From contig NC_090698.1 of assembly GCF_040954835.1 (NCBI RefSeq), forward strand, positions 69,261,284 through 69,325,283: a DNA stretch of 64,000 nt, written 5' to 3'. This document shows, one piece after another, positions 4,877-35,356 of this stretch. The notes under the pieces are model-generated. The model did not search any database. It had not been told where the DNA came from and saw only the letters and a program-made list of their open reading frames with translations. Every line of letters begins with the position of its first letter. Positions within the stretch are counted from its first letter, which is position 1. The position numbers were made by a program, and so were the translations under genes. Origin of the DNA: Lepisosteus oculatus. Lineage: Eukaryota > Chordata > Actinopteri > Semionotiformes > Lepisosteidae.

Positions 4877-5090
4877 CAGGTAGCACTAGGGGCTAAAGTT
4901 TCCCAAAACGGCGGCGCTCCCGACTCTCAGAGGGCAAGTTGTCCTGCTTGTGTTTTCGGCGCATCCCCCCCCGGCGGACGGGGTTGCGTGTGTACTGATG
5001 GATACACACACACTCCCCGACCCAGATTATCGCTCCCCTCCGCCTGTTCTCTCGGTGCGGCCGCCGTCTTTCTGCAAGAACCGTACCTGC
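4877..5090 (-). other. KIF24: Probable KIF24 non-coding first exon (5' end uncertain)
   Basis: On the reverse strand, a GC-rich segment ends at CTACCTG|GTAAGTTCTG, a near-ideal donor at 4875-4876. It would splice to the acceptor ahead of the KIF24 ATG exon. No cap site can be read; the upper bound is set by the promoter motifs at 5100-5215. This is inference from splice signals, CpG content and the head-to-head arrangement known for KIF24 and NUDT2. Confidence 0.4.
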
Positions 5091-5234
5091 GCTTCCCCGG
5101 TTTCCATGACAACAAAACGTCGCCTCCAACAGCCGGCGCCGGGCTCGCGCCCTCTGTCCCGCTTCCCCCCCCCCGCGAGGAGGAATGAGCCAATCGGGTG
5201 TCTTGATCATGGCAACGGAGGCGTGACGACACAG
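4900..5234 (-). promoter_or_regulatory. KIF24-side CpG-rich promoter with X-box motifs
   Basis: The block is rich in CpG (runs such as GCGGCCGCCG and CCGGCGCCGGGC). It holds a full RFX X-box-like palindrome at 5100-5113 (GTTTCCATGACAAC), a second site with a strong right half (GGCAAC, 5202-5215) and a CCAAT box at 5189-5193. X-boxes mark promoters of ciliary genes, which fits KIF24's centriole/cilium role. The block ends exactly where the 5S array begins. Confidence 0.6.
5100..5113. promoter_or_regulatory. RFX X-box motif
   Basis: GTTTCCATGACAAC fits the imperfect inverted repeat GTTNCC-AT-GRNAAC bound by RFX factors. It is the stronger of two candidates in this promoter. Confidence 0.6.
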
Positions 5235-5867
5235 GAACAATCGAACACGAGGGGAGGAGGCAGTACAGGAAGTGTGCTGTGTTACATCTGCGAGTAATGC
5301 AGCTTTAGGTGCCTTGGTTGTGTGTTGCTTCTGCAATAACTAACTCATTTCTGGCCTTCGCTTAGGTTAAGCATTGTTTCGTCAGTATTAACTTTACGTT
5401 TCTCAACACTAAATGTAGTGTTTGAAGTGTTACTACGCAGTATGGATGTTTTTTGATCTCTTAAACTCCAAAAATCTGTGCTGTATATTCTAAAAAAATA
5501 CTATTGGCAACACATTCAAAAGCCTGCTTTTGAAAGGACAATGCCTATTTATTTATCGTCTAATTGTAGTTAAACAGGCCGGACCCTCACAGATCAGGCT
5601 CTATTTTAGTTCTAATTCCCATTTCCAAACCTTCCATGAAAGACGTTAGACATACAGCTGCATAATTGCTTGGTTCAGTTGTATCAGCTGTTCTTTTTTC
5701 TATTTAAGCCAGAGTGAAACGGTGAAGGGAAAGAGAGCAGGGATGAAGGCAGTGAAGAGAGAGAAAGGGGGAAGGAGAGAAAAAACGCAAAGGAAAACAA
5801 GCCGCGTCGTAAAACAAGTGAGGGAGCGGTCCTCTCTATAAGAAGGGCGCCAGTGAACCCTGCTCTC
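5235..5867 (+). repeat. Left-edge partial A spacer
   Basis: It begins GAACAATCGAACACGAGG, inside the A-spacer sequence, and runs to gene 1. Compared with full A spacers it lacks about 340 bp between GGCCGGACCCT and CACAGATCAGG, and about 17 bp near 5334. It is more diverged than interior units, as expected at an array edge where homogenisation is weaker. Confidence 0.85.
5837..5842 (+). promoter_or_regulatory. TATA-like element of the 5S genes (gene 1 shown)
   Basis: TATAAG lies at -31 to -26 of gene 1 inside the conserved string CTCTCTATAAGAAGGGCGCC. The same string precedes all 17 genes at the same distance. Fish 5S spacers commonly carry such a TATA-like box about 28 bp upstream, which helps place Pol III initiation. 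Conservation extends to about -75 (GCCGCGTCGTAAAA) in both spacer classes. Confidence 0.75.
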
Positions 5868-5988
5868 GCTTACGGCCACACCACCCTGAACACGCCCGAT
5901 CTCGTCTGATCTCGGAAGCTAAGCAGGGTCGGGCCTGGTCAGTACTTGGATGGGAGACCGCCTGGGAATACCAGGTGCTGTAAGCTTT
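5868..5988 (+). rRNA. 5S rRNA gene 1
   Basis: This is the array consensus sequence. It starts GCTTACGGCCACACCACCC, carries the internal control region GCTAAGCAGGGTCGGGCCTG and TTGGATGGGAGACCGCC, and ends GGTGCTGTAAGCTTT followed by one more T (Pol III terminator). It is 121 nt, the usual vertebrate length. 5S RNA is transcribed by Pol III through TFIIIA and built into the large ribosomal subunit. Confidence 0.97.
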
Positions 5989-7379
5989 TACCAGCAGGAG
6001 GCGCTCTCTCATCCCCCTGTCCACACGTGCAGTCAGTGCGGCTCTGTCGTCTCCTTCTCTGTCAGCTGTGGGGAGACGTGGGTGCTTGTGTATTGGCGTG
6101 AGCGTCTTTTATTCTCATCATCAACCTTATATACTGTATACGTCGCCAGTTTTACAAGTCCGCAAAGGATCGAGTAAAGGTTTATCTATCGCCAGCTGAA
6201 AAGAGACCCAGTGCTTCGGCTGTGGAGACTTGTTCGGCTGGCGTTCTGTATCGAGGTCGTTTTTCTTCTCTTCAGTCGTTTTGTTTTCACCAAAGATGTA
6301 TATTTACCTGGCAAAGAATTTCGTGGTGTTGAAAAGACGCCCACTCGGAGAGAGTTGTGTGTGTGCGCCTTTAGAATGACCTGCATTGCTAGAAATAATA
6401 AGAACAACATAACCCGAGGGGAGGAGGCAGTACAGGAAGTGTGCTGTGTTACATCTGCGAGTAATGCAGCTTTAGGTGCCTTGGTTGTGTGTTGCTTCTG
6501 CAGTAAGCATAGGCAATATCTAACTCAGTTCTGGCCTTCGCTTAGGTTAAGCATTGTTTCGTCAGTATTAACTTTACGTTTCTCAACACTAAATGTAGTG
6601 TTTAAAGTGTTACTACGGATGTTTTTTGATCTCTTAAACTCCAAAAATCTGTGCTGTATATTCTAAAAAATACTATTGGCAACAAATTCAAAAGCCTGCT
6701 TTTGAAAGGACAATGCCTATTTATGTATCGTCTAATTGTAGTTAAACAGGCCGGACCCTACACCAGCCTGAGCCGTTATCGGAGTAGGTTCCTTTCGTCT
6801 TGCGCTCATTTCTCACACCTGAAGACGCCAAACGTTTCAATTTTAATTCTTTCTACTTTTAAGCGTGGAATTAGCCTCTACTTGGTCCTTTGCCTCTCTC
6901 GTGATGATAGAGCTCGAATCATTTTCTCTGAAAGCCGACCACCTGCAACTGAGAATAGCTTACTAGAAACTTTATCAAAAGCTGACATTTTATTTTCGGA
7001 TGGTATCTATTGCCGTTGCTTGTTCAGAGAAATTGAAGACGTTAGGCAAGACCTACCTTAACTAAATCCATGCCGCCTGTCCACTCGAATCCTATTGCCT
7101 CACAGATCAGGCTCTACTTTAGTTGTAATTTCCATTTCCAAACCTTCCATGAAAGACGTTAGACATACAGCTGCATAATTGCTTGGTTCAGTTGTATCAG
7201 CTGTTCTTTTTTCTATTTAAGCCAGAGTGAAACGGTGAAGGGAAAGAGAGCAGAGATGAAGGCAGTGAAGAGAGAGAAAGGGGGAAGGAGAAAAAAACGT
7301 AAAGGAAAAAAAGCCGCGTCGTAAAACAAGTGAGGGAGCGGTGCTCTCTATAAGAAGGGCGCCAGTGAGCTCTGCTCTC
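5989..7379 (+). repeat. 5S spacer 1, class A
   Basis: 1391 bp. It has the gene-3' flank (GCAGGAGGCGCTCTCTC), the shared module (GTCGCCAG to CGAGGTCGTTTT, about 6145-6265), an A-specific part (about 6266-7222) and the pre-gene segment with TATAAG. It reads TATACGTCGCCAG after the gene flank, which looks like the uninterrupted form of the site where class B has its insert. Confidence 0.9.
6820..6925 (+). mobile_element. Degenerate Penelope-type 3' tail in A spacer
   Basis: CACCTGAAGACGCCAAACG, then TTCTTTCTACTTTTAAGCG, TGGAATTA and CTCTACTTGGTCCTTTGC line up in order with the foldback element at 32439-32610 (CACCTGAAGA..GAAACGTT..TTCTTCTTTT..CAGCATGGAATAAACC..TTACTTGTTC). The hammerhead-like stem is deleted here. 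The same segment recurs in every full A spacer. The link to Penelope-like elements is inferred from the tail pattern; no reverse transcriptase is present. Confidence 0.5.
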
Positions 7380-7500
7380 GCTTACGGCCACACCACCCTG
7401 AACACGCCCGATCTCGTCTGATCTCGGAAGCTAAGCAGGGTCGGGCCTGGTCAGTACTTGGATGGGAGACCGCCTGGGAATACCAGGTGCTGTAAGCTTT
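7380..7500 (+). rRNA. 5S rRNA gene 2
   Basis: Identical to the array consensus over 121 nt, with the T-run terminator. It is preceded by TATAAG and GAGCTCTGCTCTC. Confidence 0.97.
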
Positions 7501-7650
7501 TACCAGCAGGAGGCGCTCTCTCATCCCCCTGTCCACACGTGCAGTCAGTGCGGCTCTGTCGTCTCCTTCTCTGTCAGCTGTGGGGAGACGTGGGTGCTTG
7601 TGTATTGGCGTGAGCGTCTTTTATTCTCATCATCAACCTTATATACTGTA

Positions 7651-8206
7651 GCCTGGCAAAGAATAATCAGCACAGGACACAAATATATTTCTGGGGTTCT
7701 TTATTTCTAGGTGAGTATGTGGTCTGATCTGTTCGTAGTTTAAAAGAAATAAAAAAAAACAAAAGAAATGACATATAATGATATTTTTATCTACCCAAAA
7801 TACGGTAGTGGCTCTGTCACGCAGCGCGTGCAGAAATAGGCCCTCACTGAGACCTGTATCACGGCAATGATCAGTATAAGACTTTCAATCGCATACACTT
7901 AACAAACGGTGCTTAACATAAGTCTCTGTAAAGAATGAAGGAACAGAAAATACAAGGAGCATGTGAAACCCATTACTTACAAACCAGTAAACAGATATTC
8001 CTACCCCCAGTAGATGTCTAGAAACTGGCTACGGCCTCAGTGCACTCGGTTAAAATCTAATATTCATCTTGCTCGTCTTGTCCCAATCCTATAAAATACC
8101 CCTTTATACTCATTTAGGGTGTACATAGGGAAACAACAGCGTATTTACCGTTACAACTCTCTGTAGTCATTCGGGTTCTTTTTAACGGTAACTCGCTGCT
8201 TCTTAG
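7651..8206 (-). other. Unidentified first half of the B insert
   Basis: Read on the reverse strand, the block beside the LINE encodes KKQRVTVKKNPNDYREL and a stop. About 480 bp of AT-rich sequence follows, then AATAAA near 7710 with a GT-rich stretch after it (TTTGTGTCCTGTGCTG). This looks like the 3' terminal exon and UTR of some gene, but I cannot name it. The same block is in all eight B spacers. Confidence 0.35.
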
Positions 8207-8698
8207 TCCCCGGAGGAATCTTTGGTGCATTTATTTGTGAGGTGTAGTTTTGTGAAACTGTTTTGGACGGATTTACAGAGTTTTGTTTGCAGGCAGTTAA
8301 AGGTTTTTTTTAGATTGAAGGATTTTGATATTTTATTGTATTGTTTAATAGAAAATTTGGAAAAAGAGCATTTATTTATAGTCAATTTATTAATCATTCT
8401 TGGTAAATTTCACATCCATAAATCCAAATGGTCCAATAATACTCCCCTTTTTAGTACTTTTGAGGTGGAGCTGAAACACTATTTAAATTCTATTAAAAAT
8501 GTGAGAATAAAGCACGGAAAACGTATAATATATGTAAAAAATACAATTGAATCATATAACTTACTTATTTCCTCTGGCGGTTAATTGTTTATTTTTCTGT
8601 TTGTTCTCTTGTACCCATTTTGATCCTCCGGTTGTATTTGTATTTGTAAATTCTTTATACGTTTAATAAAAAAATATTTTCAAAAAACAACATATATA
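8207..8698 (+). mobile_element. Tx1/L1-like LINE 3' end in spacer 2
   Basis: The forward frame reads EESLVHLFVRCSFVKLFW, later IILGKFHIHKSKWSNNTPLF and FEVELKHYLNSIKNVRIKHG. This pattern (HLFxxCxxVxxFW, then xxGKxxIHKxKWxNxxPxF) is the extreme C-terminus of Tx1/L1-group ORF2 proteins, after the reverse transcriptase. A short 3' UTR and an A-rich end (TTTAATAAAAAAATATTTTC) follow. The element is 5'-truncated. The Tx1 group is known for site-specific insertion into multicopy RNA genes. Confidence 0.7.
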
Positions 8699-9073
8699 GT
8701 CGCCAGTTTGACAAGTCCGCAGAGGATCGAGTAAAGGTTTATTTATCGCCCGCTGGAAGAAAAAAGACCCAGCGCTTCGGCTGGCGTTGTGGGAGTCGCG
8801 CTTTTCCGAAGTGTATCGAGGTCGTTTTCCACAGAGCTCAGATGTCAAAGCACAGCGGCAGCTCTCCAGCGATCAGCGGTCCTCTATAGCGCCCTTCCTC
8901 CCGCAGCTCCGTCCTCATTGGAAGGAAGAAAGAGTGAAATTAAAGAGCGGGGACGAGGGCAGTGAAGAGAGAAAGGGGGATGGAGAAAAAACGCAAATGA
9001 AAAAAAGCCGCGTCGTAAAACAAGTGAGGGAGCGGTGCTCTCTATAAGAAGGGCGCCAGTGAGCTCTGCTCTC

Positions 9074-9194
9074 GCTTACGGCCACACCACCCTGAACACG
9101 CCCGATCTCGTCTGATCTCGGAAGCTAAGCAGGGTCGGGCCTGGTCAGTACTTGGATGGGAGACCGCCTGGGAATACCAGGTGCTGTAAGCTTT
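9074..9194 (+). rRNA. 5S rRNA gene 3
   Basis: Array consensus, 121 nt, intact internal control region and terminator. It lies between two B spacers, the only B-B neighbour pair. Confidence 0.97.
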
Positions 9195-10763
9195 TACCAG
9201 CAGGAGGCGCTCTCTCATCCCCCTGTCCACACGTGCAGTCAGTGCGGCTCTGTCGTCTCCTTCTCTGTCAGCTGTGGGGAGACGTGGGTGCTTGTGTATT
9301 GGCGTGAGCGTCTTTTATTCTCATCATCAACCTTATATACTGTAGCCTGGCAAAGAATAATCAGCACAGGACACAAATATATTTCTGGGGTTCTTTATTT
9401 CTAGGTGAGTATGTGGTCTGATCTGTTCGTAGTTTAAAAGAAATAAAAAAAAACAAAAGAAATGACATATAATGATATTTTTATCTACCCAAAATACGGT
9501 AGTGGCTCTGTCACGCAGCGCGTGCAGAAATAGGCCCTCACTGAGACCTGTATCACGGCAATGATCAGTATAAGACTTTCAATCGCATACACTTAACAAA
9601 CGGTGCTTAACATAAGTCTCTGTAAAGAATGAAGGAACAGAAAATACAAGGAGCATGTGAAACCCATTACTTACAAACCAGTAAACAGATATTCCTACCC
9701 CCAGTAGATGTCTAGAAACTGGCTACGGCCTCAGTGCACTCGGTTAAAATCTAATATTCATCTTGCTCGTCTTGTCCCAATCCTATAAAATACCCCTTTA
9801 TACTCATTTAGGGTGTACATAGGGAAACAACAGCGTATTTACCGTTACAACTCTCTGTAGTCATTCGGGTTCTTTTTAACGGTAACTCGCTGCTTCTTAG
9901 TCCCCGGAGGAATCTTTGGTGCATTTATTTGTGAGGTGTAGTTTTGTGAAACTGTTTTGGACGGATTTACAGAGTTTTGTTTGCAGGCAGTTAAAGGTTT
10001 TTTTTAGATTGAAGGATTTTGATATTTTATTGTATTGTTTAATAGAAAATTTGGAAAAAGAGCATTTATTTATAGTCAATTTATTAATCATTCTTGGTAA
10101 ATTTCACATCCATAAATCCAAATGGTCCAATAATACTCCCCTTTTTAGTACTTTTGAGGTGGAGCTGAAACACTATTTAAATTATATTAAAAATGTGAGA
10201 ATAAAGCACGGAAAACGTATAATATATGTAAAATATAAACTTTAATCATATAACTTACTTATTACCTCTGGCGGTTAATTGTTTATTTTTCTGTTTGTTC
10301 TCTTGTACCCATTTTGATCCTCCGGTTGTATTTGTATTTGTAAATTCTTTATACGTTTAATAAAAAAATATTTTCAAAAAACAACATAGTCGCCAGTTTG
10401 ACAAGTCCGCAGAGGATCGAGTAAAGGTTTATTTATCGCCCGCTGGAAGAAAAAAGACCCAGCGCTTCGGCTGGCGTTGTGGGAGTCGCGCTTTTCCGAA
10501 GTGTATCGAGGTCGTTTTCCACAGAGCTCAGATGTCAAAGCACAGCGGCAGCTCTCCAGCGATCAGCGGTCCTCTATAGCGCCCTTCCTCCCGCAGCTCC
10601 GTCCTCATTGGAAGGAAGAAAGAGTGAAATTAAAGAGCGGGGACGAGGGCAGTGAAGAGAGAAAGGGGGATGGAGAAAAAACGCAAATGAAAAAAAGCCG
10701 CGTCGTAAAACAAGTGAGGGAGCGGTGCTCTCTATAAGAAGGGCGCCAGTGAGCTCTGCTCTC
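9195..10763 (+). repeat. 5S spacer 3, class B
   Basis: 1569 bp, nearly identical to spacer 2, so genes 2-3 form a recent B-B duplication. The clearest differences are around the LINE end (AAATATAAACTTTAATC for AAAAATACAATTGAATC) and in the length of the CATATATA junction. Confidence 0.9.
9901..10388 (+). mobile_element. Tx1/L1-like LINE 3' end in spacer 3
   Basis: Copy of the relic in spacer 2 with LNYIKN for LNSIKN. It spread with the spacer and is not an independent insertion. Confidence 0.7.
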
Positions 10764-10884
10764 GCTTACGGCCACACCACCCTGAACACGCCCGATCTCG
10801 TCTGATCTCGGAAGCTAAGCAGGGTCGGGCCTGGTCAGTACTTGGATGGGAGACCGCCTGGGAATACCGGGTGCTGTAAGCTTT
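10764..10884 (+). rRNA. 5S rRNA gene 4
   Basis: Consensus except A106G (ATACCGGG). The change restores the human-type base and is shared with genes 5, 11, 13, 14 and 17, so it is probably neutral. Confidence 0.96.
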
Positions 10885-12281
10885 TACCAGCAGGAGGCGC
10901 TCTCTCATCCCCCTGTCCACACGTGCAGTCAGTGCGGCTCTGTCGTCTCCTTCTCTGTCAGCTGTGGGGTGACGTGGGTGCTTGTGTATTGGCGTGAGCG
11001 TCTTTTATTCTCATCATCAACCTTATATACTGTATATGTTTATTACAAGTTTTACAAGTCCGCGAAGGATCGAGTAAAGGTTTATCTATCGCCAGCTGAA
11101 AGGAGACCCAGTCGAAGCGGCTGTGGAGACTTGTTCGGCTGGCGTTCTGTATCGAGGTCGTTTTTCTTCTTTTCAGTCGTTTTGTTTTCATCAAAGATGT
11201 ATATTTACCTGGCAAAGAATTTCGTGGTGTTGAAAAGACGCCCACTCGGAGAGAGCTGTGTGTGTGCGCCTTTAGAATGACCTGCATTGCTAGAAATAAT
11301 AAGAACAACATAACACGAGGGGAGGAGGCAGTACAGGAAGTGTGCTGTGTTACCTCTGCGAGTAATGCAGCTTTAGGTGCCTTGGTTGTGTGTTGCTTCT
11401 GCAGTAAGCATAGGCAATATCTAACTCAGTTCTGGCCTTCGCTTAGGTTAAGCATTGTTTCGTCAGTATTAACTTTACGTTTCTCAACACTAAATGTAGT
11501 GTTTAAAGTGTTACTACGGATGTTTTTTGATCTCTTAAACTCCAAAAATCTGTGCTGTATATTCTAAAAAATACTATTGGCAACAAATTCAAAAGCCTGC
11601 TTTTGAAAGGACAATGCCTATTTATGTATCGTCTAATTGTAGTTAAACAGGCCGGACCCTACACCAGCCTGAGCCGTTATCGGAGTAGGTTCCTTTCGTC
11701 TTGCGCTCATTTCTCACACCTGAAGACGCCAAACGTTTCAATTTTAATTCTTTCTACTTTTAAGCGTGGAATTAGCCTCTACTTGGTCCTTTGCCTCTCT
11801 CGTGATGATAGAGCTCGAATCATTTTCTCTGAAAGCCGACCACCTGCAACTGAGAATAGCTTACTAGAAACTTTATCAAAAGCTGACATTTTATTTTCGG
11901 ATGGTATCTATTGCCGTTGCTTGTTCAGAGAAATTGAAGACGTTAGGCAAGACCTACCTTAACTAAATCCATGCCGCCTGTCCACTCGAATCCTATTGCC
12001 TCACAGATCAGGCTCTATTTTAATTGTAATTTCCATTTCCAAACCTTCCATGAAAGACGTTAGACATACAGCTGCATAATTGCTTGGTTCAGTTGTATCA
12101 GCTGTTCTTTTTTCTATTTAAGCCAGAGTGAAACGGTGAAGGGAAAGAGAGCAGGGATGAAGGCAGTGAAGAGAGAGAAAGGGGGAAGGAGAGAAAAAAC
12201 GCAAAGGAAAACAAGCCGCGTCGTAAAACAAGTGAGGGAGCGGTCCTCTCTATAAGAAGGGCGCCAGTGAGCTCTGCTCTC
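10885..12281 (+). repeat. 5S spacer 4, class A
   Basis: 1397 bp. After TATACTGTA it has ATGTTTATTACAAG instead of the TACGTCGCCAG of spacer 1; most later A spacers share this. The Penelope-type tail relic is at about 11720-11825. Confidence 0.9.
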
Positions 12282-12402
12282 GCTTACGGCCACACCACCC
12301 TGAACACGCCCGATCTCGTCTGATCTCGGAAGCTAAGCAGGGTCGGGCCTGGTCAGTACTTGGATGGGAGACCGCCTGGGAATACCGGGTGCTGTAAGCT
12401 TT
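12282..12402 (+). rRNA. 5S rRNA gene 5
   Basis: Consensus with A106G only. The terminator run is intact. Confidence 0.96.
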
Positions 12403-13943
12403 TACCAGCAGGAGGCGCTCTCTCATCCCCCTGTCCACACGTGCAGTGCAGCTTTTTCGTCTCTCTGTCAGCTGTGGGGAGACGCGGGTGCTTGTGTATT
12501 GTCTGAGCGTGTTTTATTCTCATCATGAACCTTATATACTGTAGCCTGGCAAAGAATAATCAGCACAGGACACAAATATATTTATGGGGTTCTTTATTTC
12601 TAGGTGAGTATGTGGTCTGATCTGTTCTTAGTTAAAAAACAAAACAAAAATGACATATAATGATATTTTTATCTACCCAAAATACGGTAGTGGCTCTGTC
12701 ACGCAGCGCGTGCAGAAATAGGCCCTCACTGAGATCTGCATCACGGCAATGATCAGTATAAGACTTTCAATCGCATACACTTAACAAACGGTGCTAAACA
12801 TAAGTCTCTGTAAAGAATGAAGGAACAGAAAATACAAGGAGCATGTGAAACCCATTACTTACAAATCAGTAAACAGATATCCCCAGCCCGAGTAGATGTC
12901 TAGAAACTGGCTACGGCCTCAGTGCACTCGGTTAAAATCTAATATCCGTCTTGCTCGTCTTGTCCCAATCCTATAAAATACCCCTTTATACTCATTTAGG
13001 GTGTACATAGGGAAACAACACCGTATTTACCGTTACAACTCTCTGTAGTCATTCGGGTTCTTTTTAACGGTAACTCGCTGCTTCTTAGTCCCCGGAGGAA
13101 TCTTTGGTGCATTTATTTGTGAGGTGTAGTTTTGTGGAACTGTTTTGGACGGATTTACAGAGTTTTGTTTGCAGGCAGTTAAAGGTTTTTTTTTTAGATT
13201 GAAGGATTTTGCTATTTTATATTGTTTAATAGAAAATTTGGAAATATGTATAGTCAATTTATTAATCATTCTTGGTAAATTTCACATCCATAAATCCAAA
13301 TGGTCCAATAATACTCCCCTTTTTAGTACTTTTGAGGTGGAGCTGAAACACTATTTAAATTATATTAAAAATGTGAGAATAAAGCACGGAAAACGTATAA
13401 TATATGTAAAATATAAACTTTAATCATATAACTTACTTATTACCTCTGGCGGTTAATTGTTTATTTTTCTGTTTGTTCTCTTGTACCCATTTTGATCCTC
13501 CGGTTGTATTTGTATTTGTAAATTCTTTATACGTTTAATAAAAAAATATTTTCAAAAAACAACATAGTCGCCAGTTTGACAAGTCCGCAGAGGATCGAGT
13601 AAAGGTTTATTTATCGCCCGCTGGAAGAAAAAAGACCCAGCGCTTCGGCTGGCGTTGTGGGAGTCGCGCTTTTCCGAAGTGTATCGAGGTCGTTTTCCAC
13701 AGAGCTCAGATGTCAAAGCACAGCGGCAGCTCTCCAGCGACCAGCGGTCCTCTATAGCGCCCTTCCTCCCGCAGCTCCGTCCTCATCGGAAGGAAGAAAG
13801 AGTGAAATTAAAGAGCGGGGACGAGGGCAGTGAAGAGCGAGAAAGGGGGATGGAGAAAAAACGCAAAGGAAAAAAAGCAGCGTCGTAAAAGAAGTGAGGG
13901 AGCGGTGCTCTCTATAAGAAGGGCGCCAGTGAGCTCTGCTCTC
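12403..13943 (+). repeat. 5S spacer 5, class B
   Basis: 1541 bp. It belongs to a B subgroup with a shortened gene flank (GTGCAGTGCAGCTTTTTCG) and an internal loss in the LINE part (GGAAATATGTATAGTC), shared with spacer 10. Confidence 0.9.
13089..13566 (+). mobile_element. Tx1/L1-like LINE 3' end in spacer 5
   Basis: Same relic as spacer 2, with a longer T run and a small deletion before the IVNLLIILGKFHIHK segment. Confidence 0.65.
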
Positions 13944-14064
13944 GCTTACGGCCACACCACCCTGAACACGCCCGATCTCGTCTGATCTCGGAAGCTAAGC
14001 AGGGTCGGGCCTGGTCAGTACTTGGATGGGAGACCGCCTGGGAATACCAGGTGCTGAAAGCTTT
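13944..14064 (+). rRNA. 5S rRNA gene 6
   Basis: Consensus with T114A (CTGAAAGC), in helix I near the 3' end. The internal control region is intact. Confidence 0.95.
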
Positions 14065-15483: not shown

Positions 15484-15604
15484 GCTTACGGCCACACCAC
15501 CCTGAACACGCCCGATCTCGTCTGATCTCGGAAGCTAAGCAGGGTCGGGCCTGGTCAGTACTTGGATGGGAGACCGCCTGGGAATACCAGGCGCTGTAAG
15601 CTTT
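15484..15604 (+). rRNA. 5S rRNA gene 7
   Basis: Consensus with T109C (GGCGCTG). It sits between two A spacers, the only A-A neighbour pair. Confidence 0.95.
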
Positions 15605-16912: not shown

Positions 16913-17033
16913 GCTTACGGCCACACCACCCTGAACACGCCCGATCTCGTCTGATCTCGGAAGCTAAGCAGGGTCGGGCCTGGTCAGTACTTGGATGGGA
17001 GACCGCCTGGGAATACCAGGTGCTGTAAGCTTT
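16913..17033 (+). rRNA. 5S rRNA gene 8
   Basis: Array consensus over 121 nt, with intact control region and terminator. Confidence 0.97.
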
Positions 17034-18557: not shown

Positions 18558-18678
18558 GCTTACGGCCACACCACCCTGAACACGCCCGATCTCGTCTGAT
18601 CTCGGAAGCTAAGCAGGGTCGGGCCTGGTCAGTACTTGGATGGGAGACCGCCTGGGAATACCAGGTGCTGTAAGCTTT
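18558..18678 (+). rRNA. 5S rRNA gene 9
   Basis: Array consensus. The upstream flank has TGTTCTC for TGCTCTC immediately before the gene. Confidence 0.97.
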
Positions 18679-20075: not shown

Positions 20076-20196
20076 GCTTACGGCCACACCACCCTGAACA
20101 CGCCCGATCTCGTCTGATCTCGGAAGCTAAGCAGGGTCGGGCCTGGTCAGTACTTGGATGGGAGACCGCCTGGGAATACCAGGTGCTGTAAGCTTT
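20076..20196 (+). rRNA. 5S rRNA gene 10
   Basis: Array consensus over 121 nt with T-run terminator. Confidence 0.97.
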
Positions 20197-21744: not shown

Positions 21745-21865
21745 GCTTACGGCCACACCACCCTGAACACGCCCGATCTCGTCTGATCTCGGAAGCTCAG
21801 CAGGTTCGGGCTTGGTCAGTACTTGGATGGGAGACCGCCTGGGAATACCGGGTGCTGTAAGCTTT
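21745..21865 (+). rRNA. 5S rRNA gene 11, variant control region
   Basis: It differs from consensus at A54C, G61T and C68T (GCTCAGCAGGTTCGGGCTTG), plus A106G. Positions 54 and 61 fall in the A box and 68 in the intermediate element of the internal control region, as numbered for Xenopus 5S. Gene 17 carries the same set. It could be a weakly transcribed variant or a pseudogene; TATA and terminator are intact. Confidence 0.85.
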
Positions 21866-23260
21866 TACCAGCAGGAGGCGCTCTCTCATCCCCCTGTCCA
21901 CACGTGCAGTCAGTGCGGCGCTGTCGTCTCCTTCTCTGTCAGCTGTGGGGAGACGCGGGTGCTTGTGTATTGGCGTGAGCGTCTTTTATTCTCATCATCA
22001 ACCTTATATACTGTATATGTTTATTACAAGTTTTACAAGTCCGCAAAGGATCGAGTAAAGGTTTATCTATCGCCAGCTGAAAAGAGACCCAGCCGAAGGT
22101 GCTGTGGAGACTTGTTCGGCTGGCGTTCTGTATCGAGGTCGTTTTTCTTCTCTTCAGTCGTTTTGTTTTCATCAAAGATGTATATTTACCTGGCAGGGAA
22201 TTTCGTGGTGTTGAAAAGACGCCCACTCGGAGAGAGCTGTGTGTGTGCGCCTTTAGAATGACCTGCATTGCTAGAAATAATAAGAACAACATAACACGAG
22301 GGGAGGAGGCAGTACAGGAAGTGTGCTGTGTTACATCTGCGAGTAATGCAGCTTTAGGTGCCTTGGTTGTGTGTTGCTTCTGCAGTAAGCATAGGCAATA
22401 TCGAACTCTGTTCTGGCCTTCGCTTAGGTTAAGCATTGTTTCGTCAGTATTAACTTTACGTTTCTCAACACTAAATGTAGTGTTTAAAGTGTTACTACGG
22501 ATGTTTTTTGATCTCTTAAACTCCAAAAATCTGTGCTGTATATTCTAAAAAATACTATTGGCAACAAATTCAAAAGCCTGCTTTTGAAAGGACAATGCCT
22601 ATTTATGTATCGTCTAATTGTAGTTAAACAGGCCGGACCCTACACCAGCCTGAGCCGTTATCGGAGTAGGTTCCTTTCGTCTTGCGCTCATTTCTCACAC
22701 CTGAAGACGCCAAACGTTTCAATTTTAATTCTTTCTACTTTTAAGCGTGGAATTAACCTCTACTTGGTCCTTTGCCTCTCTCGTGATGATAGAGCTCGAA
22801 TCATTTTCTCTGAAAGCCGACCACCTGCAACTGAGAATAGCTTACTAGAAACTTTATCAAAAGCTGACATTTTATTTTCGGATGGTATCTATTGCCGTTG
22901 CTTGTTCAGAGAAATTGAAGACGTTAGGCAAGACCTACCTTAACTAAATCCATGCCGCCTGTCCACTCGAATCCTATTGCCTCACAGATCAGGCTCTATT
23001 TTAGTTGTAATTTCCATTTCCAAACCTTCCATGAAAGACGTTAGACATACAGCTGCATAATTGCTTGGTTCAGTTGTATCAGCTGTTCTTTTTTCTATTT
23101 AAGCCAGAGTGAAACGGTGAAGGGAAAGAGAGCAGGGATGAAGGCAGTGAAGAGAGAAAGGGGGAAGGAGAGAAAAAACGCAGAGGAAAACAAGCCGCGT
23201 CGTAAAACAAGTGAGGGAGCGGTGCTCTCTATAAGAAGGGCGCCAGTGAACCCTGCTCTC
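21866..23260 (+). repeat. 5S spacer 11, class A
   Basis: 1395 bp. GCCGAAGGTGCTGTGG near 22092 is shared only with the truncated spacer 17, so the gene 11 and gene 17 neighbourhoods are copies of each other. Confidence 0.9.
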
Positions 23261-23381
23261 GCTTACGGCCACACCACCCTGAACACGCCCGATCTCGTCT
23301 GATCTCGGAAGCTAAGCAGGGTCGGGCCTGGTCAGTACTTGGATGGGAGACCGCCTGGGAATACCAGGTGCTGTAAGCTTT
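23261..23381 (+). rRNA. 5S rRNA gene 12
   Basis: Array consensus. The upstream flank reads GTGAACCCTGCTCTC, as in gene 1. Confidence 0.97.
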
Positions 23382-24934
23382 TACCAGCAGGAGGCGCTCT
23401 CTCATCCCCCTGTCCACACGTGCAGTGCAGCTTTTTCGTCTCTCTGTCAGCTGTGGGGAGATGCGGGTGCTTGTGTATTGTCTGAGCGTGTTTTATTCTC
23501 ATCATGAACCTTATATACTGTAGCCTGGCAAAGAATAATCAGCACAGGACACAAATATATTTATGGGGTTCTTTATTTCTAGGTGAGTATGTGGTCTGAT
23601 CTGTTCTTAGTTAAAAAACAAAACAAAAATGACATATAATGATATTTTTATCTACCCAAAATACGGTAGTGGCTCTGTCACGCAGCGCGTGCAGAAATAG
23701 GCCCTCACTGAGACCTGTATCACGGCAATGATCAGTATAAGACTTTCAATCGCATACACTTAACAAACGGTGCTAAACATAAGTCTCTGTAAAGAATGAA
23801 GGAACAGAAAATACAAGGAGCATGTGAAACCCATTACTTACAAATTAGTAAACAGATATTCCTACCCCCAGTAGATGTCTAGAAACTGGCTACGGCCTCA
23901 GTGCACTCGGTTAAAATCTAATATCCATCTTGCTCGTCTTGTCCCAATCCTATAAAATACCCCTTTATACTAATTTAGGGTGTACATAGGGAAACAACAG
24001 CGTATTTACCGTTACAACTCTCTGTAGTCATTCGGGTTCTTTTTAACGGGAACTCGCTGCTTCTTAGTCCCCAGAGGAATCTTTGGTGCATTTATTTGTG
24101 AGGTGTAGTTTTGTGGAACTGTTTTGGACGGATTTACAGAGTTTTGTTTGCAGGCAGTTAAAGGTTTTTTTTAGATTGAAGGATTTTGATATTTTATTGT
24201 ATTGTTTAATAGAAAATTTGGAAAAAGAGCATTTATTTATAGTCAATTTATTAATCATTCTTGGTAAATTTCACATCCATAAATCCAAATGGTCCAATAA
24301 TACTCCCCTTTTTAGTACTTTTGAGGTGGAGCTGAAACACTATTTAAATTCTATTAAAAATGTGAGAATAAAGCACGGAAAACGTATAATATATGTAAAA
24401 TATAAACTTTAATCATATAACTTACTTATTACCTCTGGCGGTTAATTGTTTATTTTTCTGTTTGTTCTCTTGTACCCATTTTGATCCTCCGGTTGTATTT
24501 GTATTTGTAAATTCTTTATACGTTTAATAAAAAAATATTTTCAAAAAACAACATATATAGTCGCCAGTTTGACAAGTCCGCAGAGGATCGAGTAAAGGTT
24601 TATTTATCGCCCGCTGGAAGAAAAAAGACCCAGCGCTTCGGCTGGCGTTGTGGGAGTCGCGCTTTTCCGAAGTGTATCGAGGTCGTTTTCCACAGAGCTC
24701 AGATGTCGAAGCACAGCGGCAGCTCTCCAGCGATCAGCGGTCCTCTATAGCGCCCTTCCTCCCGCAGCTCCGTCCTCATCGGAAGGAAGAAAGAGTGAAA
24801 TTAAAGAGCGGGGACGAGGGCAGTGAAGAGAGAAAGGGGGATGGAGAAAAAACGCAAAGGAAAACAAGCAGCGTCGTAAAACAAGTGAGGGAGCGGTGCT
24901 CTCTATAAGAAGGGCGCCAGTGAGCTCTGCTCTC
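23382..24934 (+). repeat. 5S spacer 12, class B
   Basis: 1553 bp. It has the short gene flank of spacers 5 and 10 but the full-length LINE part of spacers 8, 14 and 16. Confidence 0.9.
24068..24559 (+). mobile_element. Tx1/L1-like LINE 3' end in spacer 12
   Basis: FVELFW variant of the relic, ending in the same A-rich tail and CATATATA junction. Confidence 0.7.
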
Positions 24935-25055
24935 GCTTACGGCCACACCACCCTGAACACGCCCGATCTCGTCTGATCTCGGAAGCTAATCAGGGTCGGA
25001 CCTGGTCAGTACTTGGATGGGAGACCGCCTGGGAATACCGGGTGCTGTAAGCTTT
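24935..25055 (+). rRNA. 5S rRNA gene 13, variant control region
   Basis: It differs at G56T and G66A (GCTAATCAGGGTCGGACCTG), both within or next to the A box of the internal control region, plus A106G. It is possibly less active; everything else is intact. Confidence 0.88.
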
Positions 25056-26451
25056 TACCAGCAGGAGGCGCTCTCTCATCCCCCTGTCCACACGTGCAGT
25101 CAGTGCGGCTCTGTCGTCTCCTTCTCTGTCAGCTGTGGGGAGACGCGGGTGCTTGTGTATTGGCGTGAGCGTCTTTTATTCTCATCATCAACCTTATATA
25201 CTGTATATGTTTATTACAAGTTTTATAAGTCCGCAAAGGATCGAGTAAAGGTTTATCTATCGCCAGCTGAAAAGAGACCCAGTGCTTCGGCTGTGGAGAC
25301 TTGTTCGGCTGGCGTTCTGTATCGAGGTCGTTTTTCTTCTCTTCAGTCGTTTTGCTTTCACCAAAGATGTATATTTACCTGGCAAAGAATTTCGTGGTGT
25401 TGAAAAGACGCCCACTCGGAGAGAGCTGTGTGTGTTAGCCTTTAGAATGACCTGCATTGCTAGAAATAATAAGAACAACATAACACGAGGGGAGGAGGCA
25501 GTACAGGAAGTGTGCTGTGTTACATCTGCGAGTAATGCAGCTTTAGGTGCCTTGGTTGTGTGTTGCTTCTGCAGTAAGCATAGGCAACATCTAACTCAGT
25601 TCTGGCCTTCGCTTAGGTTAAGCATTGTTTCGTCAGTATTAACTTTACGTTTCTCAACACTAAATGTAGTGTTTAAAGTGTTACTACGGATGTTTTTTGA
25701 TCTCTTAAACTCCAAAAATCTGTGCTGTATATTCTAAAAAATACTATTGGCAACAAATTCAAAAGCCTGCTTTTGAAAGGACAATGCCTATTTATGTATC
25801 GTCTAATTGTAGTTAAACAGGCCGGACCCTACACCAGCCTGAGCCGTTATCGGAGTAGGTTCCTTTCGTCTTGCGCTCATTTCTCACACCTGAAGACGCC
25901 AAACGTTTCAATTTTAATTCTTTCTACTTTTAAGCGTGGAATTAGCCTCTACTTGGTCCTTTGCCTCTCTCGTGATGATAGAGCTCGAATCATTTTCTCT
26001 GAAAGCCGACCACCTGCAACTGAGAATAGCTTACTAGAAACTTTATCAAAAGCTGACATTTTATTTTCGGATGGTATCTATTGCCGTTGCTTGTTCAGAG
26101 AAATTGAAGACGTTAGGCAAGACCTACCTTAACTAAATCCATGCCGCCTGTCCACTAGAATCCTATTGCCTCACAGATCAGGCTCTATTTTAATTGTAAT
26201 TTCCATTTCCAAACCTTCCATGAAAGACGTTAGACATACAGCTGCATAATTGCTTGGTTCAGTTGTATCAGCTGTTCTTTTTTCTATTTAAGCCAGAGTG
26301 AAACGGTGAAGGGAAAGAGAGCAGGGATGAAGGCAGTGAAGAGAGAGAAAGGGGGAAGGAGAGAAAAAACGCAGAGGAAAACAAGCCGCGTCGTAAAAGA
26401 AGTGAGGGAGCGGTCCTCTCTATAAGAAGGGCGCCAGTGAGCTCTGCTCTC
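25056..26451 (+). repeat. 5S spacer 13, class A
   Basis: 1396 bp. A mosaic: GTGCTTCGGCTG near 25281 as in spacer 1, then the GTGTGTTAGCC tract of spacer 9. Confidence 0.9.
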
Positions 26452-26572
26452 GCTTACGGCCACACCACCCTGAACACGCCCGATCTCGTCTGATCTCGGA
26501 AGCTAAGCAGGGTCGGGCCTGGTCAGTACTTGGATGGGAGACCGCCTGGGAATACCGGGTGCTGTAAGCTTT
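26452..26572 (+). rRNA. 5S rRNA gene 14
   Basis: Consensus with A106G only. Confidence 0.96.
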
Positions 26573-28145
26573 TACCAGCAGGAGGCGCTCTCTCATCCCC
26601 CTGTCCACACGTGCAGTCAGTGCGGCTCTGTCGTCTCCTTCTCTGTCAGCTGTGGGGAGACGCGGGTGCTTGTGTATTGGCGTGAGCGTCTTTTATTCTC
26701 ATCATGAACCTTATATACTGTAGCCTGGCAAAGAATAATCAGCACAGGACACAAATATATTTCTGGGGTTCTTTATTTCTAGGTGAGTATGTGGTCTGAT
26801 CTGTTCTTAGTTCAAAAGAAATAAAAAAAAACAAAAGAAATGACATATAATGATATTTTTATCTACCCAAAATACGGTAGTGGCTCTGTCACGCAGCGCG
26901 TGCAGAAATAGGCCCTCACTGAGATCTGTATCACGGCAATGATCAGTATAAGACTTTCAATCGCATACACTTAACAAACGGTGCTAAACATAAGTCTCTG
27001 TAAAGAATGAAGGAACAGAAAATACAAGGAGCATGTGAAACCCATTACTTACAAATCCGTAAACAGATATTCCTACCCCCAGTAGATGTCTAGAAACTGG
27101 CTACGGCCTCAGTGCACTCGGTTAAAATCTAATATCCATCTTGTTCGTCTTGTCCCAATCCTATAAAATACCCCTTTATACTCATTTAGGGTGTACATAG
27201 GGAAACAACAGCGTATTTACCGTTACAACTCTCTGTAGTCATTCGGGTTCTTTTTAACGGTAACTCGCTGCTTCTTAGTCCCCAGAGGAATCTTTGGTGC
27301 ATTTATTTGTGAGGTGTAGTTTTGTGGAACTGTTTTGGACGGATTTACAGAGTTTTGTTTGCAGGCAGTTAAAGGTGTTTTTAAGATTGAAGGATTTTGA
27401 TATTTTATTGTATTGTTTAATAGAAAATTTGGAAAAAGAGCATTTATTTATAGTCAATTTATTAATCATTCTTGGTAAATTTCACATCCATAAATCCAAA
27501 TGGTCCAATAATACTCCCCTTTTTAGTACTTTTGAGGTGGAGCTGAAACACTATTTAAATTCTATTAAAAATGTGAGAATAAAGCACGGAAAACGTATAA
27601 TATATGTAAAAAATACAATTGAATCATATAACTTACTTATTACCTCTGGCGGTTAATTGTTTATTTTTCTGTTTGTTCTCTTGTACCCATTTTGATCCTC
27701 CGGTTGTATTTGTATTTGTAAATTCTTTATACGTTTAATAAAAAAATATTTTCAAAAAACAACATATATAGTCGCCAGTTTGACAAGTCCGCAGAGGATC
27801 GAGTAAAGGTTTATTTATCGCCCGCTGGAAGAAAAAAGACCCAGCGCTTCGGCTGGCGTTGTGGGAGTCGCGCTTTTCCGAAGTGTATCGAGGTCGTTTT
27901 CCACAGCGCTCAGATGTCGAAGCACAGCGGCAGCTCTCCAGCGACCAGCGGTCCTCTATAGCGCCCTTCCTCCCGCAGCTCCGTCCTCATTGGAAGGAAG
28001 AAAGAGTGAAATTAAAGAGCGGGGACGAGGGCAGTGAAGAGAGAAAGGGGGATGGAGAAAAAACGCAAAGGAAAACAAGCCGCGTCGTAAAACAAGTGAG
28101 GGAGCGGTGCTCTCTATAAGAAGGGCGCCAGTGAACTCTGCTCTC
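26573..28145 (+). repeat. 5S spacer 14, class B
   Basis: 1573 bp. It has the long gene flank and the AAATACAATTGAATC end of the LINE part, as in spacer 2. Confidence 0.9.
27279..27770 (+). mobile_element. Tx1/L1-like LINE 3' end in spacer 14
   Basis: The relic has LKVFLRLKD (GTGTTTTTAAG) where others have LKVFFRLKD. Otherwise it is as in spacer 2. Confidence 0.7.
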
Positions 28146-28266
28146 GCTTACGGCCACACCACCCTGAACACGCCCGATCTCGTCTGATCTCGGAAGCTAA
28201 GCAGGGTCGGGCCTGGTCAGTACTTGGATGGGAGACCGCCTGGGAATACCAGGTGCTGGAAGCTTT
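28146..28266 (+). rRNA. 5S rRNA gene 15
   Basis: Consensus with T114G (CTGGAAGC), shared with gene 16. Confidence 0.95.
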
Positions 28267-29430
28267 TACCAGCAGGAGGCGCTCTCTCATCCCCCTGTCC
28301 ACACGTGCAGTCAGTGCGGCTCTGTCGTCTCCTTCTCTGTCAGCTGTGGGGAGACGCGGGTGCTTGTGTATTGGCGTGAGCGTCTTTTATTCTCATCATG
28401 AACCTTATATACTGTAGCCTGGCAAAGAATAATCAGCACAGGACACAAATATATTTTGTGGAGGAGGCAGTACAGGAAGTGTGCTGTTACATCTGCGATT
28501 AATGCAGCTTTAGGTGCCTTGGTTGTGTGTTGCTTCTGCAGTAAGCATAGGCAATATCGAACTAATTTCTGGCCTTCGCTTAGGTTAAGCATTGTTTCGT
28601 CAGTATTAACTTTACGTTTCTCAACACTAAATGTAGTGTTTGAAGTGTTACTACGCAGTATGAATGTTTTTTGATCTCTTAAACTCCACAAATCTGTGCT
28701 GTATATTCTAAAAAAATACTATTGGCAACAAATTCAAAAGCCTGCTTTTGAAAGGACAATGCCTATTTATTAAGCGTCTAATTGTAGTTAAACAGGCCGG
28801 ACCCTACACCAGCCTGAGCCGTTATCGGAGTAGGTTCCTTTCGTCTTGCGCTCATTTCTCAGACCTGAAGACGCCAAACGTTTCAATTTAATTCTTTCTA
28901 CTTTTAAGCGTGGAATTAACCTCTACTTGGTCCTTTGCCTCTCTCGTGATGATAGAGCTCGAATCATTTTCTCTGAAAGCCGACCACCTGCAACTGAGAA
29001 TTAATAGCTTACTAGAAACTTTATCAAAAGCTGACATTTTATTCTCGGATGGTATCTATTGCCGTTGCTTGTTCAGAGAAATTGAAGACGTTAAGCAAGA
29101 CCTACCTTGCCTAAATCAATGCCGCCTGTCCACTAGAATCCTATTGCCTCACAGATCAGGCTCTATTTTAGTTGTAATTTCCATTTCCAAACCTTCCATG
29201 AAAGACGTTAGACATAGAGCTGCATAATTGCTTGGTTCAGTTGTATCAGCTGTTCTTTTTTCTATTTAAGCAAGAGTGAAACAGTGAAGGGAAAGAGAGC
29301 AGGGATGAAGGCAGTGAAGAGAGAGAAAGGGGGAAGGAGAGAAAAAAACGCAAAGGAAAAAAAGCAGCGTCGTAAAACAAGTGAGGGAGCGGTGCTCTCT
29401 ATAAGAAGGGCGCCAGTGAGCTCTGCTCTC
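28267..29430 (+). repeat. 5S spacer 15, B/A chimera
   Basis: 1164 bp, the shortest complete spacer. It starts as class B (GCCTGGCAAAGAATAATC, ACAAATATATTT near 28455) and switches abruptly at about 28457 to class A (GTGGAGGAGGCAGTACAGG). The shared module and the first part of the A-specific sequence are therefore skipped. From there it follows the spacer 6/7 subgroup. Confidence 0.88.
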
Positions 29431-29551
29431 GCTTACGGCCACACCACCCTGAACACGCCCGATCTCGTCTGATCTCGGAAGCTAAGCATGGTCGGGCCTG
29501 GTCAGTACTTGGATGGGAGACCGCCTGGGAATACCAGGTGCTGGAAGCTTT
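29431..29551 (+). rRNA. 5S rRNA gene 16, variant
   Basis: It differs at G59T (GCTAAGCATGGTCGG), in the A box, and at T114G. Promoter strength may be reduced; the terminator is intact. Confidence 0.9.
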
Positions 29552-31113
29552 TACCAGCAGGAGGCGCTCTCTCATCCCCCTGTCCACACGTGCAGTCAGT
29601 GCGGCTCTGTCGTCTCCTTCTCTGTCAGCTGTGGGGAGACGCGGGTGCTTGTGTATTGTCGTGAGCGTGTTTTATTCTCATCATGAACCTTATATACTGT
29701 AGCCTGGTAAAGAATAATCAGCACAGGGCACAAATATATTTCTGGGGTTCTTTATTTCTAGGTGAGTATGTGGTCTGATCTGTTCTTAGTTAAAAAACAA
29801 AACAAAAATGACATATAATGATATTTTTATCTACCCAAAATACGGTAGTGGCTCTGTCACGCAGCGCGTGCAGAAATAGGCCCTCACTGAGACCTGCATC
29901 ACGGCAATGATCAGTATAAGACTTACAATCGCATACACTTAACAAACGGTGCTAAACATAAGTCTCTGTAAAGAATGAAGGAACAGAAAATACAAGGAGC
30001 ATGTGAAACCCATTACTTACAAACCAGTAAACAGATATTCCTACCCCCAGTAGATGTCTAGAAACTGGCTACGGCCTCAGTGCACTCGGTTAAAATCTAA
30101 TATCCATCTTGCTCGTCTTGTCCCAATCCTATAAAATACCCCTTTATACTCATTTAGGGTGTACATAGGGAAACAACAGCGTATTTACCGTTACAACTCT
30201 CTGTAGTCATTCGGGTTCTTTTTAACGGTAACTCGCTGCTTCTTAGTCCCCAGAGGAATCTTTGGTGCATTTATTTGTGAGGTGTAGTTTTGTGGAACTG
30301 TTTTGGACGGATTTACAGAGTTTTGTTTGCAGGCAGTTAAAGGTTTTTTTTAGATGGAAGGATTTTGATATTTTATTGTATTGTTTAATAGAAAATTTGG
30401 AAAAAGAGCATTTATTTATAGTCAATTTATTAATCATTCTTGGTAAATTTCACATCCATAAATCCAAATGGTCCAATAATACTCCCCTTTTTAGTACTTT
30501 TGAGGTGGAGCTGAAACACTATTTAAATTCTATTAAAAATGTGAGAATAAAGCACGGAAAACGTATAATATATGTAAAATATAAACTTTAATCATATAAC
30601 TTACTTATTACCTCTGGCGGTTAATTGTTTATTTTTCTGTTTGTTCTCTTGTACCCATTTTGATCCTCCGGTTGTATTTGTATTTGTAAATTCTTTATAC
30701 GTTTAATAAAAAAATATTTTCAAAAAACAACATATATAGTCGCCAGTTTGACAAGTCCGCAGAGGATCGAGTAAAGGTTTATTTATCGCCCGCTGGAAGA
30801 AAAAAGACCCAGCGCTTCGGCTGGCGTTGTGGGAGTCGCGCTTTTCCGAAGTGTATCGAGGTCGTTTTCCACAGAGCTCAGATGTCAAAGCACAGCGGCA
30901 GCTCTCCAGCGATCAGCGGTCCTCTATAGCGCCCTTCCTCCCGCAGCTCCGTCCTCATCGGAAGGAAGAAAGAGTGAAATTAAAGAGCGGGGACGAGGGC
31001 AGTGAAGAGAGAAAGGGGGATGGAGAAAAAACGCAAAGGAAAACAAGCCGCGTCGTAAAACAAGTGAGGGAGCGGTGCTCTCTATAAGAAGGGCGCCAGT
31101 GAGCTCTGCTCTC
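29552..31113 (+). repeat. 5S spacer 16, class B
   Basis: 1562 bp. Its last ~400 bp match spacer 10 closely; its first part resembles spacers 8 and 12. Confidence 0.9.
30247..30738 (+). mobile_element. Tx1/L1-like LINE 3' end in spacer 16
   Basis: FVELFW variant with FRWKD for FRLKD. It ends in the same A-rich tail. Confidence 0.7.
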
Positions 31114-31234
31114 GCTTACGGCCACACCACCCTGAACACGCCCGATCTCGTCTGATCTCGGAAGCTCAGCAGGTTCGGGCTTGGTCAGTACTTGGATGGG
31201 AGACCGCCTGGGAATACCGGGTGCTGTAAGCTTT
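31114..31234 (+). rRNA. 5S rRNA gene 17, variant control region
   Basis: It carries the same A54C, G61T, C68T and A106G set as gene 11. It is the last gene of the array. Confidence 0.85.
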
Positions 31235-31653
31235 TACCAGCAGGAGGCGCTCTCTCATCCCCCTGTCCACACGTGCAGTCAGTGCGGCGCTGTCGTCTCC
31301 TTCTCTGTCAGCTGTGGGGAGACGCGGGTGCTTGTGTATTGGCGTGAGCGTCTTTTATTCTCATCATCAACCTTATATACTGTATATGTTTATTACAAGT
31401 TTTACAAGTCCGCAAAGGATCGAGTAAAGGTTTATCTATCGCCAGCTGAAAAGAGACCCAGCCGAAGGTGCTGTGGAGACTTGTTCGGCTGGCGTTCTGT
31501 ATCGAGGTCGTTTTTCTTCTCTTCAGTCGTTTTGTTTTCATCAAAGATGTATATTTACCTGGCAGGGAATTTCGTGGTGTTGAAAAGACGCCCACTCGGA
31601 GAGAGTTGTGTGTGTGCGCCTTTAGAATGACCTGCATTGCTAGAAATAATAAG
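31235..31653 (+). repeat. Right-edge truncated A spacer
   Basis: It follows spacer 11 almost base for base to CTAGAAATAATAAG and then stops. In a full A spacer the next bases are AACAAC(A/C), which is where the left edge of the array begins. Confidence 0.9.
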
Positions 31654-31754
31654 TAAATCTGGGCTCCAGATCCTTGCCTACTCGATTCTATATGAGAAGC
31701 AGGGAGGAAACTAAACGATGAGCCCGGGTATCGCTTTCTTATCATCTCCTGTAT

Positions 31755-32102
31755 TTCCAGCTACTATTCCCAGCATACCAGAGCGCAAAGGCAACGGGAA
31801 TTGTGCGCTGCCACGCAATCACCGCTGAAATATCAAGATCCTCAGCATCGCACCCGCTACCCGCTGACGTCCACAGAGTACAGAGTGGGACGACGCATTT
31901 GAGTGGGAGCATATTTACTTATGGCCTGCGTAAGGTGTCTCGCTTCTGCAAGGAAGACGGATTTTTCACTGTTAGAGCTCACAGTGGGCTGAGAACGAAA
32001 GCCTCTGTAATGTTTCTATACTATTGATCACGCCCGCTGAATTGACACGGAGGACTCCCAACACCTGATCGGCGCGGCAGCTGCACTCGGTCCTCCTGGA
32101 CG
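31755..32102 (+). promoter_or_regulatory. NUDT2-side promoter
   Basis: CTACTATTCCCAGCATAC at 31761-31778 resembles the ZNF143/Staf element (ACTACAATTCCCAGMATGC). A half X-box GGCAAC is at 31790-31795 and a CRE-like TGACGTCC at 31865-31872. ZNF143 sites are frequent in bidirectional housekeeping promoters. No TATA box is seen. The transcription start was not determined. Confidence 0.5.
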
Positions 32103-34148: not shown

Positions 34149-34310
<162 letters not shown>

Positions 34311-34324
34311 TAACACGGGAGCTC

Positions 34325-35302: not shown

Positions 35303-35356
35303 GGGCACATCCGTGCTCCCCTGCCTCACCGCCCGGTCCCGCTCTCTGCCTCTCAG

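Follow-up and report, generated by a model that had tools for sequence, protein, structure and literature searches.

A 5S ribosomal DNA array with CTCF-like sites between the 5′ ends of KIF24 and NUDT2 in Lepisosteus oculatus

What becomes of two divergently transcribed protein genes when a tandem array of genes for RNA polymerase III (Pol III) stands between their 5′ ends, and hence between their RNA polymerase II (Pol II) promoters? The question is raised by a 64,000-nucleotide stretch of the Lepisosteus oculatus genome (contig NC_090698.1, positions 69,261,284 to 69,325,283 of the forward strand), referred to here as the window, in which KIF24 on the minus strand and NUDT2 on the plus strand form a head-to-head pair with a cluster of 5S ribosomal RNA (rRNA) genes between them. 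A first-pass annotation, made from the letters alone, had described a 26.4-kb 5S ribosomal DNA (rDNA) array in the gap of about 27 kb between the two 5′ ends, and this description is borne out: a covariance-model search (cmscan) finds 17 5S genes, the array occupies 5235-31653, and the predicted exon-1 donors of the two genes are 27.2 kb apart, well outside the spacing of about 1 kb that is used to define a bidirectional promoter. We moderately favour the reading that a compact gap between divergent genes gained a small 5S locus, by origin in place or by insertion, and that this locus now spaces, and probably insulates, the KIF24 and NUDT2 promoters. The main features of the array are the following:

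5235..31653, plus strand: 5S rDNA array of 17 genes, with A (~1.5 kb) and B (~1.7 kb) units mostly alternating
5868..5986, plus strand: first 5S rRNA gene (cmscan, 111.9 bits)
31114..31232, plus strand: last 5S rRNA gene (cmscan; 4 substitutions in common with the gene at 21745)
5988..6006, plus strand: CTCF-like motif at the first 5S terminator (working matrix; an equivalent site at all 17 genes, the last at 31234-31252)

The whole 64-kb window was searched against Rfam with the gathering score as cut-off, and all 17 matches at or above this score are full-length 5S_rRNA genes on the plus strand (5868 to 31232), arranged head to tail. The extent of the array (26,419 bp) was obtained by aligning one A and one B unit to the window with blastn, and the window is free of N. 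An upstream TATAAG and a terminal TTTT are kept at 17/17 genes, and comparison of the 17 sequences reveals variation at positions 54, 56, 59, 61, 66, 68, 106, 109 and 114. Of the internal promoter elements, box C is taken as positions 80-97. The variable positions lie at 54-68, 106, 109 and 114, thus none falls inside box C, which is unchanged in every gene, and five of the nine (54, 56, 59, 61 and 68) fall in box A/intermediate element (box A/IE). Most 5S copies look transcribable by Pol III and the locus is apparently functional; the copy number in the assembly could be a collapsed one.

The 5S genes start 1285-1694 bp apart, with steps of ~1.5 and ~1.7 kb mostly alternating. Unit types were compared by way of one A unit (at 10764) and one B unit (at 7380), which have in common the 5S gene and the 152 bases that follow it (99.3% identity over 271 bases), 134 bases upstream of the gene (91.8% identity) and a diverged stretch of ~120 bases (74%), the remainder being unalignable. 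On our reading of the alignment, the order of units after each gene is A B B A B A A B A B A B A B C B followed by a final half A. The C unit (28146-29430) is chimeric, opening like a B unit and continuing like an A unit, and speaks for exchange between the unit types. Identities, computed with gaps ignored, are 97.3-99.3% among A units (n = 7) and 97.7-99.6% among B units (n = 8). Units diverge by 0.2-3.7%, and unique deletions are present. With the unit at 21745, which is 9.4 kb distant, the final half unit shares 99.81% identity, and with the six other A units 96.3-98.0%; exchange thus runs across the array.

The spacers have features of their own. In B units ~1 kb is without alignment to A, and this part includes an open frame at 8207-8584, with matching places in B units, and ends A-rich. 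Against Pfam the frame yields just two weak and unrelated matches (E 0.13 and 0.43). It could be likened to the tail of ORF2 in long interspersed elements (LINEs) of the L1/Tx1 type, a likeness that is unconfirmed by Pfam and is not claimed here. The element Mutsu, which targets 5S genes (PMC11202950), was weighed as a conceivable source of this LINE-like frame. The A spacers may contain promoter DNA that was captured from between genes. That A and B spacers are copies of the flanking promoters was considered and rejected, as the one A and one B unit have no blastn match outside the array (E up to 1e-5). ETS-like strings number 15 in the window against 3.5 expected in Markov sequences, and ACAGGAAGTG was seen by eye in A spacers beside edge sequence (5244-5280 and A spacers).

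How the array came to lie between the two genes can be approached from its edges. In the blastn alignment of unit A the same unit position, A540, stands both at the left start (5235) and at the right end (31653). The left edge is clear from 5244, and reaching 5235 requires three mismatches; the edge is therefore ambiguous within 5235-5244 and the phase offset is 0-9 bp. By our own arithmetic a random pair of ends would match in phase this well in about 19/1518 cases, that is ~1 in 80 or less. Edges in the same phase fit either tandem growth by whole units or insertion at one point, as of a circle opened at one point, and the two are indistinguishable here. No 6-12 base word that could represent a target-site duplication is common to the 66-base stretches at the two edges. 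The first unit is partial and lacks A898-1235; its identity to unit A is 91.8% on the left and 98.2% on the right, and the outermost part is thus the more diverged edge copy.

These same properties bear on the possibility that a 5S array from elsewhere in the genome was wrongly joined between KIF24 and NUDT2 during assembly. Long near-identical repeats are error-prone, and the evidence here is assembled sequence rather than reads. Such an error is nevertheless highly improbable in our estimate, since the window contains no N, the units are told apart by their divergence, by unique deletions and by the chimeric unit, and a random misjoin would seldom place both joins at one unit position; the same-phase edges argue weakly against misassembly.

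If the array were lifted out, little would be left between the genes. The predicted KIF24 exon-1 donor, read by eye as CTG/GTAAGT, opens an intron from 4876 on the minus strand, and the predicted NUDT2 exon-1 donor, likewise read by eye, starts at 32103 on the plus strand. Each Pol II promoter has less than 0.5 kb between the array edge and its predicted donor, and with the array removed 358 + 449 = 807 bp separate the two donors. The flanking segments are:

4877..5234, minus strand: predicted first exon of KIF24, non-coding, with its promoter half (donor by eye; X-box, half X-box, CCAAT)
31654..32102, plus strand: predicted NUDT2 promoter half and non-coding exon 1 (donor by eye; ZNF143-like, CRE-like, half X-box core)

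Promoter motifs were sought by consensus strings, and expected numbers are mean window counts in 4 Markov sequences. The left flank has an X-box at 5100 with 1 mismatch (when up to 2 mismatches are allowed, the window has 2 against 0.75 expected), the window's single half X-box, at 5207 (0.25 expected), and a CCAAT string at 5188 (4 against 7.5), together with YY1-like and SP1-like strings. The right flank has a ZNF143-like sequence at 31760 with 3 mismatches (1 in the window, 0 expected), CGTTGCC, the half X-box core, at 31790 (3 against 4.5) and a string like the cAMP response element (CRE) at 31865 (18 against 34). NRF1-like and ETS-like strings occur in neither flank. The earlier description of promoter-like sequence against both edges stands for the X-boxes on the left and the ZNF143-like site on the right, and we give weight to these alone; it does not stand for CCAAT, CGTTGCC and CRE-like strings, which are no commoner than chance. 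The observed/expected (o/e) CpG ratio is 0.98 directly left and 0.90 directly right of the array.

The chance-level strings near the edges would suit a plainer account, in which the array occupies ordinary intergenic space between promoters that were already separate and regulation is unaffected by where it lies. In human, too, the 5S array adjoins a gene, RHOU (PMC5865718). Against this, just 807 bp accommodate both promoters and both predicted first exons, with little room beyond adjoining promoters, and we judge the account unlikely.

The small gap can also be viewed from the human genome. There, KIF24 and NUDT2 are presumably arranged head to head with a gap of a few hundred bases, as the first-pass annotation also has it. 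The neighbourhood itself has documentary support, as a 185-kb human 9p13.3 duplication names UBAP1, KIF24, NUDT2, KIAA1161 and C9orf24 (PMC5048446), and the two genes are therefore close neighbours in human. This comparison could be read in the opposite direction: the 5S locus might be ancestral at this position in fishes and the compact human arrangement derived by loss, in which case the array split nothing. The comparison is with human, and the unit divergence gives no date for the array, because homogenisation resets it. Yet the same-phase edges, the remaining DNA of less than 1 kb and some of the promoter-like motifs on both sides fit late insertion, and an old array would be expected to gather unrelated DNA at its edges, so that we consider an ancestral locus distinctly unlikely. 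The proposal that the array was inserted into, and split, a shared promoter accordingly holds in part: the geometry (the non-array DNA, the flank motifs and the same-phase edges) agrees with it, whereas insertion is indistinguishable here from growth in place, starting with a few copies, or from an ancestral location lost in tetrapods. The promoter is called shared because of the short distance and the motifs.

Whether the array could act as a boundary, which the first-pass annotation had left as a question, gains a concrete sequence basis in the CTCF-like sites that follow the 5S genes. A working CTCF count matrix and core consensus were used, and the motif had already been noticed when it was put to the test. 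The best CTCF-like sequence of the window, TTACCAGCAGGAGGCGCTC, is present in 16 copies and a one-base variant of it in 1 copy, which together account for 17/17 5S genes, all on the plus strand; the motif thus recurs in every unit, as would be expected of a CTCF-bound tandem-repeat boundary, and in one orientation. The first copy starts at 5988, one base past the annotated 5S end at 5986. It overlaps the T-run, and one base farther on the core CCAGCAGG starts. With the working matrix the exact per-position probability is 1.2e-7. A score of at least 19.9 bits is reached in 0/40 Markov sequences of 64 kb (best 19.07), and the plain core pattern with 1 mismatch allowed has 17 sites in the window, all at 5S genes, and 0-2 in each of 12 Markov sequences. 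The 19 motif positions are identical in 16 copies. The exception belongs to the 15484 gene, in which a deletion sets in at the motif end: this copy (15484-15653) has lost ~100 bases directly after the motif and its core is intact.

A further site lies outside the array:

32097..32115, plus strand: highest-scoring CTCF-like match beyond the array, located at the predicted exon-1 donor of NUDT2 (17.08 bits, p 9.2e-7)

Scores of at least 17 arise 0.125 times per 64-kb Markov sequence. This site is on the NUDT2 side and has the same orientation as the array sites. By the convergent rule for CTCF sites, sites so oriented would stop cohesin arriving from the NUDT2 side. The CTCF-like sites behind 5S genes are a new observation here; among the matches listed in literature searches that joined 5S rDNA with CTCF or insulator terms, none has a CTCF site behind 5S genes in its title or the start of its abstract. 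Searches that combined the gene names with '5S rDNA' (the wording '5S rRNA' was not combined, and most subscription literature lay outside their scope) found no report of 5S rDNA between KIF24 and NUDT2, and the part of PMC5852592 that was available gives no 5S location in gars or bowfin. An exact scan for a vertebrate-type 5S core gave 0 matches in microbial genome contigs and 0 in viral contigs, and a blastn search with a 5S gene and its downstream block gave none in plasmids, with phages and E. coli outside the search; both results are uninformative on fishes.

Base composition provides a further hint. The CpG o/e of the array is 0.83 and its TpG o/e 0.97 over 26.4 kb, as compared with 0.43 and 1.21 at 36,451-64,000, and the CpG o/e is 0.98 in 4871-5234, directly left of the array. 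Retention of CpG without an excess of TpG is unlike long germline methylation, and recent origin or homogenisation could also explain it. These figures bear on a silencing account, in which the array is a repressive element that brings the locus to the rim of the nucleolus and reduces expression of both genes. In mouse cells, nucleolar association rose with a 119-bp 5S sequence, and expression of a linked reporter fell (4.68 versus 8.09 units; PMC3261910); in pike, moreover, 5S arrays are heavily methylated (PMC5437419). The composition of the present array differs from that expected after long methylation, and open frames are kept in both KIF24 pieces and both NUDT2 exons read in the window, for which reasons we regard silencing as improbable. 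Insulation by distance and CTCF seems likelier to us.

Under the reading that we favour, a founding 5S segment would have entered a compact (<1 kb) divergent promoter gap, either as a circle or as a small insertion, and unequal exchange would then have expanded the array in place, pushing the promoter halves 27 kb apart. Each gene would have kept its own half, with RFX/CCAAT-type sites for the ciliary KIF24 and ZNF143/CRE-type sites for NUDT2. The array would most likely separate the two Pol II promoters by distance and by the CTCF-like site at each Pol III terminator, and the 17 sites, all in the same direction, would be expected to anchor loops towards NUDT2 and to shield KIF24. A bolder version, which we put forward only tentatively and think will probably prove too strong, is that a composite Pol III/CTCF boundary replaced the shared promoter, with the 17 NUDT2-pointing sites serving as a one-sided loop anchor, the two genes being regulated apart, and the strength of the boundary varying with 5S copy number.

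Several points weigh against these proposals. Units are homogenised, and the CTCF-like sites are therefore one repeated motif rather than 17 independent matches; in addition the matrix is a working one and the test was post hoc. Changes in box A/IE, as placed here, affect 4/17 genes (21745, 24935, 29431 and 31114), and the numbers of CCAAT, CRE-like and CGTTGCC strings across the window do not exceed chance. Richness in CpG extends beyond the array, with CpG o/e values of 0.90, 0.77 and 0.69 in three stretches of 31,654-36,450, the 4.8 kb to its right. The ancestral state is a presumed one, drawn from this window and the human gene neighbourhood. Finally, a Pol II reporter in mouse cells was expressed at a lower level when 5S DNA lay next to it (PMC3261910), and this result predicts repression and not neutral insulation.

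If the favoured reading is true, the dosage of ribosomal genes, through variation in 5S copy number, would be coupled to how two Pol II genes are kept separate, one for a ciliary kinesin and one for a diadenosine tetraphosphate (Ap4A) hydrolase. The locus would also be a natural case in which to ask whether Pol III arrays insulate, repress or ignore adjoining promoters, which transgene work has asked artificially, and it raises the question of whether CTCF-like sites behind 5S genes are general.

The identity of the flanking genes is based on the following coding segments:

142..300, minus strand: KIF24 exon, start of the kinesin-13 motor (PDB matches KIF2/KIF2A, E 3e-7, the best, and KIF2C, E 1e-6)
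845..1204, minus strand: KIF24 first coding exon, SAM domain, ATG at 1204 (Pfam SAM_1)
34182..34302, plus strand: NUDT2 first coding exon (splice corrected by eye)
35357..35676, plus strand: NUDT2 last coding exon (splice corrected by eye)

The SAM_1 match has an E of 1.1e-5 and 26.2 bits against a cut-off of 23; the inner end of this exon is provisional. The 142-300 piece (53 residues) matches no Pfam family. A SAM domain with a kinesin-13 motor is the layout of KIF24. The 146-residue protein from the two right-hand exons matches asymmetrical bis(5′-nucleosyl)-tetraphosphatase (PDB 3u53, E 5.6e-53), and since its matches in PDB are chains of the asymmetrical Ap4A hydrolase, the right gene is NUDT2. 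Dense short tandem repeats occupy 34838-36322, in the intron and on the 3′ side of NUDT2, and the TpG o/e of 34181-36450 is 1.91. Farther to the right there are two minisatellites, at 44887-45318 (50-base units) and 50677-51390 (43-base units), and a minus-strand frame at 44236-44556 without a Pfam match, whose likeness to FAM219A was not used as evidence.

The locus can finally be set beside known systems. As in other vertebrate 5S rDNA arrays, the 5S genes are clustered; the small copy number resembles that of the zebrafish somatic-type 5S genes (PMC5513064), and the human chromosome 1 array likewise has a protein gene, RHOU, adjoining it (PMC5865718). It differs from vertebrate 5S arrays in being bordered on each side by the 5′ end of one gene of a divergent pair, with predicted exon-1 donors within ~0.4 kb of each edge, and in the alternation of two spacer types along most of its length. 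The higher-order 5S arrays of Esox also combine different spacer variants in a single array, although in pike these comprise more than 20,000 copies, are (peri)centromeric and are heavily methylated (PMC5437419), whereas here 17 copies lie between two protein genes. The 5S transgenes by which a locus is brought to the nucleolus and Pol II expression damped resemble it in placing 5S DNA beside a Pol II promoter (PMC3261910), but the present array is natural, has fixed gene neighbours, is CpG-rich and carries CTCF-like sites. The nearest Pol III/CTCF precedent found is the human 1q23.3 tRNA repeat, in which tandem Pol III units bind CTCF and a boundary has been proposed (PMC4041453); in comparison, the gar array consists of 5S rather than tRNA genes, in units of ~1.5-1.7 kb rather than 7.3 kb, and its putative CTCF sites, recognized here by motif, are positioned directly at the terminator.

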